Positions 2,038 to 8,463 of a stretch of DNA of 64,000 nt are shown one piece after another. The stretch comes from Geothermobacter ehrlichii (GTDB lineage Bacteria > Desulfobacterota > Desulfuromonadia > Desulfuromonadales > Geothermobacteraceae), in contig NZ_VNIB01000004.1 of the NCBI RefSeq assembly GCF_008124615.1, positions 124,001 to 188,000 of the forward strand, read 5' to 3'. The stretch's first letter is position 1. The number at the start of each line of letters is the position of its first letter. The translations under genes and the position numbers were made by a program. Below the pieces are notes generated by a model that was given only the letters and a program-made list of their open reading frames with translations, was not told the DNA's origin and did not search any database.

Positions 2038-3135
2038 CTATTCCGCCGCTTCCTGCTGCAGCCGTTTGCGGGTGCGGGCCGGAATGTAGTTGCAGAAGGG
2101 TTCTTCGGCCATGTAGTCGCCGTAGACCGCGTCGGCCCGGGCGCGGCAGCCGCCGCAGATGTTGATGAATTCGCACTCGCCGCACTTGCCCTTGTAGGCC
2201 TTGAAATCACGCAAATCCTTGAAGGTCTTGGCGTTGAACCAGAGTTCCTTGAACGGAATCTGCTTGACGTTGCCGACCGACGAGTGGAAGTAGGAGCAGG
2301 GCTTCAGATTGCCGAAACAGTCGATCAGGCAGATGGTCTGGGCGGCGATGCAGCCCTTGCCGCCGCCGGTGGAAAAGGTCAGGCTGCGGCGCTTGAAATC
2401 GACCCCTTCCGCTTTGGCCATCTGCGGTACGATCCGGTAGTAGTGTGGAGCGCAGGTCGGCCGCATGAGAATTTCGTCCTCATGTTTTTCCTGCTCGTAG
2501 TGCCACTTGAGAATCTCTTCGTAGTCCTCCTTGGAGATCAACTCGTTCATGATCTCTTCGCCGCGTCCGGTCGGCACGATCATGAACATGTACCAGGCGG
2601 TGGCACCAAGACTCTTGGCCAGCCGGAAGGTGTTGCCGATGTCGTGCTGGTTGCGCTTGGTGAAGGAGGAGTTGATCAGGAACTTGATGCCGTTGCGCTT
2701 CAGAATTTCGGCACCGCGCACCGTCCCCTCAAAGGCCCCCTCGCAGTTGCGGAAATTGTCGTGCACCTCGGCGGTCGAACCGTCGAGGGAGAGGGAGACC
2801 ATCTTGATGTCGGCCTCCTTCATCTGCCGGCAGACCTCATCGGTGATCAGGGTGCCGTTGGTCGCCATGCACATCCGCAGTCCCTTTTCGGTGCCGTAGC
2901 GGGCGATGTCGAAGATATCGTCCCGCAACAGGGGCTCACCGCCGGAAAGAACCAGCACCGGTTTGGAGACCTCGCAGATATCATCGATCAGCTTGAAGGC
3001 CTCTTCGGTGTTGAAGTCGCCGGCCGCCGCATTCATGTCGGAAGAGCAGCGGCAGTGTACGCAGTTCAGGTTGCAGCGCTGGGTCGTCTCCCAGGCGATC
3101 CACTTGGGAATGAATTTTTCGTCCTGGTCCGCCAT
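2038..3135 (-). CDS. Radical SAM/SPASM protein of the haem cluster (AhbD/NirJ-like)
   Basis: This 365-residue protein has the radical SAM cluster motif C21-x3-C25-x2-C28 ([12 protein letters not shown]), the SGGEPLLR motif, and a C-terminal SPASM-type cysteine set ([25 protein letters not shown]). That architecture matches the AhbC/AhbD/NirJ family of haem-modifying enzymes, and the position directly before hemE supports a porphyrin substrate. AhbD decarboxylates Fe-coproporphyrin propionates; the exact reaction here cannot be read from sequence. The start at 3135 is preferred over 3168 because AAAGGAGATTTC is placed ideally before it. Because hemE and a ferrochelatase are also present, it may act in an alternative or side branch. 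Confidence 0.85.
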
Positions 3136-3354
3136 GAAATCTCCTTTGTCGTCCTGGTCGCAAGACATGAATTTTCATATTACACCAGGGGGCGAAACCA
3201 GACAAGAAACAAGCTCCTTTCACCGCCGGCAGCCGTTGTCAAACCCTCCCCGCCCGGTGTATATTGGCAAACACTGTTTTGCCCGAACCGGGCGTTGCAC
3301 ATCCTCCCGGGTCCGGGTCGCAGTCCGGCTCATCCCGCGGTGCCGAGGAACGGA

Positions 3355-5496
3355 ATGGACACATCTACCATCAAGCCGACAACCAAGTACTGGGTTTTTC
3401 TGCTGGCCATCATCTTCCTTCTCTTTCTGGTCATCTTCGCCAGCTTCACCGCCTCCTGGTTCGCCCTCAGCCCCGAAGAACAGGCCCTGGTCGAGAAGTT
3501 CGCCAGGAAACTCTTCCCCTACCCCCTGATGGGAGCGATCATCCTCTGCCTGATCATCGGCTCGCTGGTCAGCCTGCTTTTCAGGCACTACATCATTCCG
3601 ATCCTGCAGCTGAGCGAGGAGACCAAGCTGATCTCGGTCGCCAACCCGAACTACCGCATCAAGCCGAAGGGGGCGCGGGAAGTGGTCAAGCTGATCGAGG
3701 TCATCAACGAAACCGCCGACGCGTACCAGAAACTGCAGCAGGAAGTGCGCGCCGAGGTCGACAAGGCCCGGGCCGAGTTGCAGGCCGAGCGCAACCGCCT
3801 GGCGGCCCTGATGTCGGAACTGCCCAACGGCGTGCTGGTCTGCAACACCGACGGCCAGATCCTGCTCTACAACGCCCGGGCCCAGGACCTGCTGCAACAG
3901 CCGGGAAAGCTGGTCGGCCTGGGCCGCTCGGTCTTTTCGGTGCTGGAACGGGAACCGATCCTGCACGCCCTGGACGTGCTGCACCATGCCGCACGCAACG
4001 GCCAGAAAAGCCCGAAGACCAACTTCATCATGACAGTCCGGGAAAACCTGAGCCTGCGGGTGAACATGGCGCCGGTTTTCGCCAACGGCAACGGCGATCG
4101 CCACATGACCGGCTTCGTTCTGGCCCTGGAGGACATGACCAGCCAGCTCGAGGCCGAACTCGAACGGGACATGGTCTTCCGCACCCTGACCGAAGCGATG
4201 CGCTTTTCCACCGACGAAATCAGGCAGGCCATTTCCACCATCCTGTCCCGACCGAACCTCGACGCCGGACAGCTGTTCGAGCTGCGCCAGGTGATCGACC
4301 GCGCCTCGCAGGCGCTGGAGGAACAGCTGAAACATGCCCGCAGCGCCTACGCACGCCACCTGAGCAGCCGCAGCCGCACTGACGACATTCTTGCCTCCGA
4401 CCTACTGGAGCTGCTGAAACGCCACCTGCGCCGGCAGTTACGCCGTCCCGTTGCCATGCAGGCGGAGCAGGAGATCTGGCTCAAGACCGACAGCTACAGC
4501 CTGCTGCAGGGGATCGGCCAGCTGGCCAACCGCCTCGCCGAACAGCAGGGACTGGCGGAGATCGCTCTCGAACTGAAGGGGCGGGGTGACAACAGGGCCG
4601 TTCTGGCCATCCACTGGAAAGGCTGCGCCCTCGAACTGAAAGAGCTCCATCGCTGGCAGCGGCGGCCGCTGATCCGCGACGCCCGCGACCAGCTGATCTC
4701 GGTCCTCGACCTGGTACAGAAATGGGACGGGCAGATCACCCCCCGGCTCAACGCCGACAACCTGTGCGAAGGGATCGACATCAGCCTGCGCCGGGGCGAA
4801 CCGGAGGAGCGGTTCGAAACCCTGGAGGGGCCGGAACACCGACCGGTCTACTACGAATTCAACCTCTTTCAGCGCCACGGCTGGGAAGAGCTCGGCCAGG
4901 TGGCGCTGCGCAACCTGACCTATGTCGTCTTCGATACCGAAACCACCGGCCTCAATCCGTCGAAGGGGGACGAAATCATCCAGATCGGCGGCGTGCGGGT
5001 GATAGGCACCCGCATCCTTTACGACGAAACCATCGACCAGCTGGTCGATCCGCAGCGCCACGTGCCGCCCGAATCGGTCGCCATCCACCACATTCAGCCG
5101 GAAATGCTGCGCGGCCAGCCGACCATCGACAAGGTGCTGCCCAATTTCCACCATTTCTGCGAAGGCTCGGTGCTGGTGGCCCACAACGCCGCCTTCGACA
5201 TGCGCTTTCTGCAGATGAAGGAAGAGCTGACCGGCCTCAGGTTCGACCATCCGGTCCTCGACACGCTGCTGCTCTCCTGGGTGGTGCACCCCAACCAGGA
5301 GAACCACAACCTGGACGACATCGCTCGACGCCTCGACATTCCGATCGTCGGCCGCCACACCGCCCTCGGAGACGCCCTGGTCACCGCCGAAGTCCTGGTC
5401 CGGCTCATTCCCCTGCTCGAAGCCAGGGGGATTCACACCCTGGAGGAGGCCCTGATCGCCTCGGCCGCGTCGCCCTACAACAGGATCAAGTTCTAG
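3355..5496 (+). CDS. Membrane HAMP-PAS sensor fused to a DnaQ-type 3'-5' exonuclease
   Basis: A 713-residue protein. Two membrane helices (about residues 12-34 and 57-79) are followed by a HAMP-like linker, a coiled coil, a PAS domain (about 155-265), a long helical part resembling a histidine-kinase core, and a C-terminal DnaQ/epsilon-type exonuclease (about 520-705). The exonuclease keeps all DEDDh residues: D527 and E529 (VFDTETTGL), D615 (HNAAFDMRF), H668 and D673 (GRHTALGDA). The kinase-like middle lacks a recognisable phospho-histidine box and the N and G boxes, so it is probably not a kinase. The start is set by GAGGAACGG before the ATG. It is convergent with the next gene across a strong shared terminator. 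Likely a membrane-tethered nuclease controlled by a sensor; the substrate is unknown. Confidence 0.88.
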   Translation: MDTSTIKPTTKYWVFLLAIIFLLFLVIFASFTASWFALSPEEQALVEKFARKLFPYPLMGAIILCLIIGSLVSLLFRHYIIPILQLSEETKLISVANPNYRIKPKGAREVVKLIEVINETADAYQKLQQEVRAEVDKARAELQAERNRLAALMSELPNGVLVCNTDGQILLYNARAQDLLQQPGKLVGLGRSVFSVLEREPILHALDVLHHAARNGQKSPKTNFIMTVRENLSLRVNMAPVFANGNGDRHMTGFVLALEDMTSQLEAELERDMVFRTLTEAMRFSTDEIRQAISTILSRPNLDAGQLFELRQVIDRASQALEEQLKHARSAYARHLSSRSRTDDILASDLLELLKRHLRRQLRRPVAMQAEQEIWLKTDSYSLLQGIGQLANRLAEQQGLAEIALELKGRGDNRAVLAIHWKGCALELKELHRWQRRPLIRDARDQLISVLDLVQKWDGQITPRLNADNLCEGIDISLRRGEPEERFETLEGPEHRPVYYEFNLFQRHGWEELGQVALRNLTYVVFDTETTGLNPSKGDEIIQIGGVRVIGTRILYDETIDQLVDPQRHVPPESVAIHHIQPEMLRGQPTIDKVLPNFHHFCEGSVLVAHNAAFDMRFLQMKEELTGLRFDHPVLDTLLLSWVVHPNQENHNLDDIARRLDIPIVGRHTALGDALVTAEVLVRLIPLLEARGIHTLEEALIASAASPYNRIKF

Positions 5497-5520: not shown

Positions 5521-5554
5521 AAAAGCCCCGCCGGCTGCTGCCGGCGGGGCTTTT
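5521..5554. terminator. Bidirectional rho-independent terminator
   Basis: Stem GCCCCGCCGGC (5525-5535), loop TGCT, stem GCCGGCGGGGC (5540-5550), with A residues before and T residues after. It sits between two convergent genes and should serve both. Confidence 0.95.
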
Positions 5555-6790: not shown

Positions 6791-7759
6791 ATGAAACTGC
6801 TGCGCGGTCTCTTCAACCCCGTTTTCGCCTTCGTCGGCCTGCAGATCCTGTGGGTGCTGGTCCTGCTCGGCTGGATCAACTGGTTCATGGGCCGCCACCA
6901 GCAGCTCAGAGAGCTGGCGGAACGTTACAGCCCTGAACTGGCCGGCAGCCAGATCGACTGGGTCATCCTGGTCGAGGGAATTCTGCTGCTGGTGGCCATC
7001 CTCGCCGCCGCCTACGTCATCTTCATCTACTGGCGCCGGCAGATCGCGCTCAACCGCGCCCAGCGCAATTTCATCGCCCAGGTCACCCACGAACTGAAGT
7101 CCCCCCTATCCTCGCTGCAGCTGCACATCGAAACCCTGCGCCGCCACCGGGTCGACCCGGAGCGTCTGGCGACCTTTCTCGACACCATGCAGGCCGACGT
7201 CAAGCGGCTCGACATCCTGACCAGCAACCTGCTGACGGTCAACCGCCTGGAGCACAAGGGGCTGAAACTGGCGCTGAAGCCGGGTAATTTCTCCGCCCTG
7301 ACCGAGTCCTACTTCAAGGACATCATGTACGCCCTGCCCAGAGCAGGTCACATGACCCTCGACATCGAGCCCGATCTCCACGCCCACTTCGAGGCCGAGT
7401 CGATGCGCACCGTCTTTCGCAACCTGCTGGAAAATGCCCTGCTCTACAGCGAAGGCACCCCACAGCTGCACGTCAGCCTGAAACGGGAAGGCACGCGCCT
7501 GCATTTCGCTTTTCGGGACAACGGCTGCGGGCTGGCCAGAGACGAGCTGCGCAAGGTCTTCAAGATGTTCTACCGGGTCCAGGGGACCGGCAAGACCATC
7601 CGGGGCTCCGGGCTGGGGCTGTTCATCGTCCGGGCGATCGTCCGCATGCACAAGGGGAAGGTCTGGCTCGAAAGTCCGGGGCCCGGCAAGGGAACGACGG
7701 CCCATGTGCTGCTGCCGGCCTGGAAAGGCCCGGTTCCGTCCGGCGAGGAGATGGGATGA
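6791..7759 (+). CDS. Membrane sensor histidine kinase
   Basis: A 322-residue two-component kinase. Two transmembrane helices (about residues 8-28 and 57-79) enclose a short periplasmic loop of about 30 residues and there is no HAMP domain. The H box FIAQVTHELKSPLSSL carries the phospho-histidine; the N box NLLENALLY, G1 DNGCGLARDE and G2 GSGLGLFIVRAIV form an intact ATPase. It overlaps its response regulator by 4 nt (ATGA), so the two are translationally coupled and almost certainly partners. With so small a periplasmic part it probably senses the membrane or an accessory protein. No good ribosome site is visible before the ATG. Confidence 0.93.
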   Translation: MKLLRGLFNPVFAFVGLQILWVLVLLGWINWFMGRHQQLRELAERYSPELAGSQIDWVILVEGILLLVAILAAAYVIFIYWRRQIALNRAQRNFIAQVTHELKSPLSSLQLHIETLRRHRVDPERLATFLDTMQADVKRLDILTSNLLTVNRLEHKGLKLALKPGNFSALTESYFKDIMYALPRAGHMTLDIEPDLHAHFEAESMRTVFRNLLENALLYSEGTPQLHVSLKREGTRLHFAFRDNGCGLARDELRKVFKMFYRVQGTGKTIRGSGLGLFIVRAIVRMHKGKVWLESPGPGKGTTAHVLLPAWKGPVPSGEEMG

Positions 7760-8463
7760 GTACACCGACGATTCTGCTGATCGAGGACGAACAACATATC
7801 GCCGAAGGCCTGATCTTCAACCTGGAGGCCGAAGGGTACCGGGTGCTGTGGGCACAGAGCGGGGAAGAGGGGCTCGAACTGCTGCAGCGAGAGCAGGTCA
7901 GCCTGCTGGTCCTCGACCTGATGCTGCCGGGCATCTCCGGCTACGAGGTCTGCCGCCGGCTGCGCACCGGCAATCCGCGGCTGCCGGTGCTGATCCTTTC
8001 GGCCCGGGCCGAGGAACGCGACCGGGTCAAGGGACTCGCCCTCGGCGCCGACGACTACCTGATCAAGCCCTTTTCCCTCGACGAGTTCCTGCTGCGGGTG
8101 CGGGGCATGCTGAAACGGGCGGAATGGTACCAGGCGAAAACAGTGAGCGAGCTGGTCTTCGGCGACAACCGGATCGACCTGCGGCAGGGGACCGCGACGA
8201 CGGCCAGGGGCGAGCTGACCCTGACCGAACAGGAACTGAAGCTTCTGCGGGTGCTTGCCGAACGGGCCGGCGAGGTAGTCGACCGGACACTGCTGCTGAA
8301 GGAAGCCTGGGGGATGCGGCCGGAAACGGCGACCCGGACCCTCGACAACTTCATCGTCCGGCTGCGACGCTATTTCGAGCCGGACCCGGCCCGGCCGAGA
8401 CATTTTCTCACCGTCCGCGGCCGCGGCTACCGCCTGGTTCTCGAACCGGAAAAGACGGCCTGA
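7756..8463 (+). CDS. OmpR/PhoB-family response regulator
   Basis: A 235-residue regulator. The receiver domain has acidic residues E10, D11 and E12, phospho-acceptor D54 (VLDLMLPG), the conserved Ser in LILSARA, and the KPF motif. A C-terminal winged-helix DNA-binding domain (about 135-230) ends in HFLTVRGRGYRLV, typical of OmpR/PhoB proteins. It pairs with the kinase that overlaps its start. The TGA stop codon (8461-8463) lies inside the left end of a dispersed MITE-like repeat (8460-8619), so the insertion defines the current C-terminus; the last residues LEPEKTA may be element-adjacent rather than ancestral. Confidence 0.94.
   Translation: MSTPTILLIEDEQHIAEGLIFNLEAEGYRVLWAQSGEEGLELLQREQVSLLVLDLMLPGISGYEVCRRLRTGNPRLPVLILSARAEERDRVKGLALGADDYLIKPFSLDEFLLRVRGMLKRAEWYQAKTVSELVFGDNRIDLRQGTATTARGELTLTEQELKLLRVLAERAGEVVDRTLLLKEAWGMRPETATRTLDNFIVRLRRYFEPDPARPRHFLTVRGRGYRLVLEPEKTA

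Follow-up and report, generated by a model that had tools for sequence, protein, structure and literature searches.

Sensor histidine kinases of the WalK/VicK type are built in the order HAMP-PAS-DHp-CA, and the protein reported here resembles them in domain order and fold up to residue 487, but it lacks their catalytic motifs and has a DEDDh exonuclease added. The DEDDh domains of bacterial DNA polymerases, DinG and epsilon share the fold and the five catalytic residues of this exonuclease; in contrast to them, it forms the terminal part of a membrane sensor, belongs to a clade of its own and is preceded by a junction motif of its own. In Pseudomonas putida, PP_0353 is an RNase_T exonuclease encoded in an operon with the CBS protein PP_0354 and linked to actP-type uptake (PMC9927547, PMC5715377, PMC9765439). 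The available description of PP_0353 mentions no sensor part, and it is by this description, not by sequence, that PP_0353 is set against the protein studied here. PP_0354 is reported as a target of MxtR/ErdR (CrbS/CrbR), the counterpart cluster in P. aeruginosa being PA3232-PA3235, and Pflu5625 of P. fluorescens is annotated with cAMP-binding, CBS and nucleotidyltransferase domains (PMC9927547, PMC5715377, PMC9765439). Pflu5625 is predicted to act by nucleotidylation, and the pflu5625 mutant is reported to have no phenotype (PMC5715377). According to the published summary of the P. putida genetics, growth on pyruvate is slowed when the exonuclease gene (pp_0353) or the transporter gene is lost but not when pp_0354 is, and none of these deletions, pp_0353 and pp_0354 included, affected growth on 20 mM acetate (PMC9927547). 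In the literature searched, which found these Pseudomonas genes and covered few subscription journals, no title or abstract describes a sensor-exonuclease architecture and no role is given for it, in keeping with the preliminary description of this DNA, which regarded the role as not established. The parts are thus of known kinds; the combination, its sequence signature and the gene cassette around it are not described in that literature.

The window, that is, the whole stretch of 64,000 nucleotides of Geothermobacter ehrlichii DNA that was analysed, carries the gene as a unit of its own. The reported architecture of a membrane-anchored PAS sensor, a kinase-shaped module and a DEDDh exonuclease is almost certainly correct, and its features are as follows.

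3355..5496, + strand: sensor-exonuclease gene, 713 residues, a single-gene unit flanked by two genes on the - strand
3388..3465, + strand: membrane helix 1 (residues ~12-37; hydropathy scan, AF2 helix 8-37)
3517..3588, + strand: membrane helix 2 (residues ~55-78; hydropathy scan, AF2 helix 55-96)
3592..3732, + strand: HAMP-like region (residues ~80-126; WalK model match, HAMP in relatives)
3793..4140, + strand: PAS domain (residues ~147-262; Pfam PAS_8 at 147-192, alignment)
4138..4359, + strand: DHp-like helical hairpin (residues 262-335) without the phospho-acceptor histidine (alignment, structure prediction and fold comparison)
4381..4800, + strand: CA-like (GHKL-fold) domain (residues 343-482) without N and G boxes (Pfam, pattern scans, predicted fold)
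4852..4869, + strand: junction motif YEFNLF (residues 500-505; family pattern [YF][DEN][FY][DNSG][LF][FLM])
4918..5469, + strand: DEDDh (DnaQ/RNase_T) exonuclease domain (residues 522-705; Pfam RNase_T at 524-681, 134.5 bits; AF2 model and fold match)
4933..4941, + strand: catalytic D527 and E529 (sequence, alignments)
5197..5199, + strand: catalytic D615 (alignments)
5356..5358, + strand: catalytic H668 (alignments)
5371..5373, + strand: catalytic D673 (alignments)
5525..5554, + strand: GC-rich hairpin followed by four T, a probable terminator between the convergent genes (seen directly in the sequence; absent from the list of the consensus scan)

The open reading frame runs from ATG 3355 to the stop at 5496. 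The same frame extends upstream to GTG 2284 (1070 aa), the extension being antisense to a radical-SAM gene, and the starts of the orthologues, chosen by length, lie mostly within a few residues of ATG 3355. That radical-SAM gene, of heme synthesis, is divergent from the sensor-exonuclease gene, and a nitronate-monooxygenase-like gene is convergent with it. The radical-SAM protein (2038-3168, - strand) is near the heme b synthase AhbD (TIGR04545, 450 bits, cut-off 500) and its gene adjoins hemE. A histidine kinase and an OmpR-type regulator are encoded two genes downstream (6791-8463, + strand), an arrangement kept in the close relatives G001, G003 and G004.

The loop between the two membrane helices spans only about 17-20 residues by hydropathy and in the AlphaFold model, and the protein therefore has no extracellular sensing domain. 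The sensor had been described as made of HAMP and PAS domains, and this is borne out: Pfam recognises the PAS domain as PAS_8, and the HAMP region, not scored by Pfam in the window protein, is indicated by the match of residues 59-272 to the NCBIfam WalK model (E 7.7e-13), by a Foldseek match of the protein's model to a full-length WalK model and by HAMP scores in 14 of the 36 wider relatives. The sequence GLGRS at 188-192, in the PAS domain, is invariant across 28 aligned orthologues. In the full-length AlphaFold model (pTM 0.44) the placement of the domains relative to each other is not fixed.

The region that follows had been called kinase-like but without histidine or ATP motifs, and the wider comparison agrees. 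Neither HisKA nor HATPase_c is matched by Pfam in the window protein at E<=1; among the 36 wider members, HATPase_c is matched in none (E<=0.01) and HisKA in a single one, weakly (E 0.0087). Patterns for the H, N and G1 boxes have no match in 61 members, in which there are three stray GxGLG matches (L131, L010, L011), and in the alignment the position of the phospho-acceptor histidine is taken in the relatives by D, E, G, Q, L and others; no functional kinase core emerges. A structure prediction, as proposed in the preliminary description, was run on residues 262-487 alone (pLDDT 83, pTM 0.62) and gave a DHp-CA fold, which matched histidine kinases or their close kin (LvrB, DivL) in all 50 of the matches listed. 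The best match (Z 13.4, rmsd 2.6, 128 residues aligned) covers the CA part only, and matches that span both DHp and CA have Z 11.4-13.3 at an rmsd of ~8-14. A profile of the region aligns to the real kinase at 6791-7759 with a probability of 19% and finds two PDB sequences, both histidine kinases, at E 0.36 and 0.47; sequence alone is no proof of kinship with histidine kinases, and the predicted fold supports it. Conservation is lowest here (0.42-0.49, against 0.67 in the PAS domain and 0.79 in the exonuclease). Both DHp and CA are absent in six of the 36 wider rows (L004, from Pelotalea chapellei, L005, L006, L129, L130 and L150) and the CA half alone in two (L127, L149). Since the motifs are gone, the conservation is the lowest in the protein and the region is lost in some rows, it is most likely a dead and dispensable connector.

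The eight wider rows that lack all of the kinase-like region or its CA half still hold sensor and nuclease, and the predicted nuclease is therefore very probably the output of the sensor, as had been suggested when nucleotide or nucleic acid cleavage rather than phosphorylation was proposed. The five DEDDh residues, complete and correctly numbered in the preliminary description, are identical in 33 of the 33 rows that cover them in the order-level alignment (34 rows, 33 of them distinct and one truncated at a contig end) and in 35 of the 35 rows that hold the exonuclease in the wider alignment (36 rows; L128 is cut), so that no loss across the family was seen. The exonuclease model has the RNase H-like exonuclease fold, matching the DNA polymerase 9qpc with Z 24.6 (rmsd 1.8, 192 residues aligned), DinG with Z 21.9 and epsilon with Z 21.1. 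The domain is very likely to be an active phosphodiesterase.

The exonuclease is preceded by the junction motif, which is present in 58 of the 61 members, 26-29 residues ahead of the exonuclease start, and in none of 47 other DnaQ proteins (23 DUF294-linked and 24 other), for a pattern composed after inspecting the member sequences. The three members without a score had no recognised exonuclease start, L128 and L036 being cut by contig ends. The motif borders a stretch in which the model confidence is very low (483-502), a position that might fit a docking or switch motif. The sliding-clamp motif is QL[SD]LF; YEFNLF resembles it but lacks the Q at the first residue, which makes the likeness a weak lead. 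The genome's other DnaQ (L002) has QPSLF ahead of its exonuclease domain.

The sensor-exonuclease occurs in 30 of the 58 genomes of the order, its own included. Of these proteins 28 are near full length (the window protein among them), one is cut by a contig end and that of G014 is distant, with 30% identity where the others have 46-76%; this recurrence is far beyond chance. In a sample of the phylum it is found in 27 of 395 genomes, members being those with a row of at least 238 bits; one genome, G287, has the sensor half alone at a contig end, and the next rows under the cut-off are a second match in G308 (181 bits) and a standalone DnaQ (150 bits). Relatives lie on plasmid records of Cupriavidus, Paracoccus, Ciceribacter, Rhizobium, Marivivens and Ruegeria: 825 records matched, 17 of them with at least 80% cover, and eight, picked for different organisms, were examined, six annotated and two without annotation read by tblastn. 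The earlier statement that the family occurs in other proteobacteria thus holds, the family being present in Desulfobacterota, Alpha- and Betaproteobacteria. In a tree of 92 exonuclease domains, all 45 sensor-linked ones fall on one side of one branch (97/92), and 23 standalone DnaQ proteins linked to DUF294, with two others, fall on one side of another (97/86); L157-L159 are labelled "other" in this tree though they lie 4-5 kb from a DUF294 gene. A nesting of the sensor-exonucleases within the DUF294-linked standalone clade was considered and rejected, as the tree has two separate supported groups. One contig, L005, comes from a MAG named Planctomycetes (GWF2_50_10); its protein is very close to that of Pelotalea, and the contig is probably misplaced. 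The sensor-exonuclease is a real, widespread and uncharacterised signalling family, and a class of membrane sensor with a very probable, predicted nuclease output and its own sequence signature can now be named.

The preliminary description had proposed to look for conserved neighbours of the orthologues. Inside the order none is fixed across families by ORF clustering of 33 regions, while outside it recurring cassettes were found. The commonest real neighbours in the order are ORFs resembling histidine kinases (in 11 of 33 regions) and response regulators (in 10 of 33), groups that are large families joined by general similarity; in G008 a kinase-regulator pair lies just upstream of the gene. 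Another ORF group (c22), near the gene in four genomes, was dropped as non-coding frames by eye. A DUF294 gene lies near the sensor-exonuclease in two of the 30 order members, the window locus not being one of them. In G027, DUF294 and symporter genes adjoin it, and G014 has the run DUF4212, symporter, receiver, sensor-exonuclease, kinase, DUF294. At the level of whole genomes DUF294 is present in 29 of the 30 members of the order and in 21 of 28 others (p 0.02), a weak test in which genomes without a match above 50 bits were counted as lacking it.

Outside the order the cassettes contain a DUF294 nucleotidyltransferase, a sodium:solute symporter, a receiver protein and a symporter-kinase. In 19 wider phylum regions, several on short contigs, the receiver gene lies beside the sensor-exonuclease in 16, a symporter/kinase is present in 12 (four of which match the kinase half only) and DUF294 in eight; in the plasmid regions DUF294 is found in eight of eight and the receiver in five of eight. 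The Marivivens order is acs, DUF4212, symporter, DUF294, a hypothetical gene, receiver, sensor-exonuclease; acs was not among the references of the tblastn cassette search of the regions. Unlike the sensor-exonuclease, the symporter/kinases score Pfam HisKA and HATPase_c in three of three scanned, and a kinase-box pattern is seen in four of 16 symporter/kinase regions. Of 23 regions scanned, 16 show the NTase motif pattern; the misses are L045, L145, L147-L150 and L154. Across the phylum sample, DUF294_C is over the cut-off in 27 of 27 member genomes, which come from 14 families, and in 149 of the 368 others, counts that are uncorrected for shared ancestry. The sensor-exonuclease class is thereby tied to a recurring and unexplained gene set around monocarboxylate uptake.

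In G. ehrlichii itself the partners are unlinked. DUF4212, the symporter and a cNMP-CBS-DUF294 protein are encoded near each other on contig C7 (L152, 130000-149000), and no exonuclease was found beside them there; DUF294 and symporter are thus in the same genome as the sensor-exonuclease and do not adjoin it at the window locus. The DUF294 protein of this genome has cNMP-binding and CBS domains and an intact GS...DQDN NTase motif. Between the symporter and DUF294 genes (L152, 5565-8066) lie five direct repeats with a period of ~506 bases, 60-98% alike.

We propose that a membrane PAS sensor would signal through a catalytically dead histidine-kinase core as connector to a DEDDh phosphodiesterase as output, and that the protein would work with a DUF294 nucleotidyltransferase (cNMP-binding, CBS and NTase domains) to control a sodium:solute symporter of the acetate/pyruvate type. 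We consider it likely that the sensor-exonuclease works with DUF294 in monocarboxylate uptake; for its own genome, where the genes are unlinked, we infer the pairing. In the chemistry that we tentatively favour, DUF294 would add a nucleotide to a target and the exonuclease would take it off, under the control of the sensor and, in many relatives, probably of the receiver protein as well. Of the two possible sites for the nucleotide, a protein hydroxyl in the style of GlnD is favoured over the 3' end of an RNA.

Standalone DnaQ genes also adjoin DUF294, within 2 kb at at least 25 of the first 60 places, and since these proteins form a clade separate from the sensor-exonucleases, two separate exonuclease lineages have the same DUF294 partner; the standalone proteins differ also in lacking the junction motif. 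The pairing of a nucleotidyltransferase with two lineages of a type of enzyme that cleaves off terminal nucleotides suggests that a nucleotide is added and taken off again. The likeness to GlnD and GlnE lies in the grouping of DUF294_C with GlnD domains (PMC3710099), in the match of one partner DUF294 protein to the GlnE model as well, and in the idea of writer and eraser; in contrast to GlnD and GlnE, writer and eraser would here be separate proteins, and the proposed eraser a DEDDh enzyme. The epsilon subunit is reported to split the p-nitrophenyl ester of TMP (Hamdan 2002, cited in PMC4822814), and the aryl-O-nucleotide bond of that substrate would be comparable to that of a nucleotidylated tyrosine. 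The P. putida genetics summarised above are suggestive and fit the add-and-remove chemistry in part, through the pyruvate phenotypes; growth on acetate and pflu5625 are silent. Weighed against our explanation are the two of 30 order members with DUF294 nearby, the window gene standing alone, the uncorrected co-occurrence, the unaffected growth on acetate and the lack of a phenotype in the pflu5625 mutant. RNA and DNA are the ordinary substrates of DEDDh enzymes, and the sequence of this exonuclease has nothing that would exclude them, which counts against the add-and-remove chemistry. That phosphotransfer has been replaced by nucleotidyl removal, with the dead core relaying to a DEDDh eraser of a DUF294 mark on the symporter or a partner, is the more specific and doubtful form of the proposal. 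If true, DEDDh exonucleases would be protein de-nucleotidylases, a function not found for them in the literature searched, and two DnaQ lineages would have arrived at this role independently of each other; two puzzles would be joined, namely what DUF294 proteins transfer and why an exonuclease adjoins acetate permease genes.

Nearly as likely as the add-and-remove chemistry, though still tentative, is a sensor-controlled decay of RNA, in which 3' ends of mRNA, small RNA or nanoRNA would be trimmed at the membrane, for instance in transcripts of carboxylate metabolism, and DUF294 might tail the same RNAs. Many RNases and DNases share this fold, and an RNase_T search of the own genome (G000) found two proteins only, so that no separate Orn-like enzyme of the RNase_T family is seen; the genome may have just one DnaQ besides and no Orn. 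The authors of the P. putida study suggest mRNA decay, as a speculation, for PP_0353 (PMC9927547), and the missing phenotype of the pp_0354 deletion, as reported there, is neutral for it. Pfam, however, scores no RNA-binding domain in the window protein, and the pairing with DUF294 would require a GlnD-type enzyme to tail RNA, an activity for which no support was found. It is unlikely that the exonuclease instead hydrolyses a small nucleotide signal, a linear dinucleotide or a derivative, and so lowers a signal read by the cNMP-binding and CBS domains of DUF294. The DUF294 protein of the own genome does have such domains, and some DEDDh enzymes, Orn for example, cleave dinucleotides; but cyclic nucleotides would not be opened by DEDDh enzymes, whose substrates must offer a free 3' end, and the cassette genes in the six plasmid regions with annotation include none named as a cyclase.

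If the protein were a sensor-bearing DNA exonuclease, tethered to the membrane and used in repair or proofreading, this would agree with the top-scoring solved folds, which come from the exonuclease domains of DNA polymerases, DinG and epsilon. We regard this role as improbable, given that the cassettes of the six annotated plasmid regions hold uptake and signalling genes, not repair genes, and that the clade is separate from the other DnaQ proteins sampled. Scarcely credible is a working histidine kinase with an incidental exonuclease: the DHp-CA fold is kept and one member gives the weak HisKA match, but the H, N and G1 boxes are missing from all 61 members, HATPase_c is absent from all 36, and the region is poorly conserved beside the exonuclease and lost wholly or partly in eight rows.

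In three of the regions outside the order a further protein, of 162-174 residues and with a hydrophobic start, is encoded after DUF294 (L148 5844-6329, L149 5524-6048, L150 5742-6260). That of L148 has no Pfam match, and these proteins are possible candidates for the target.
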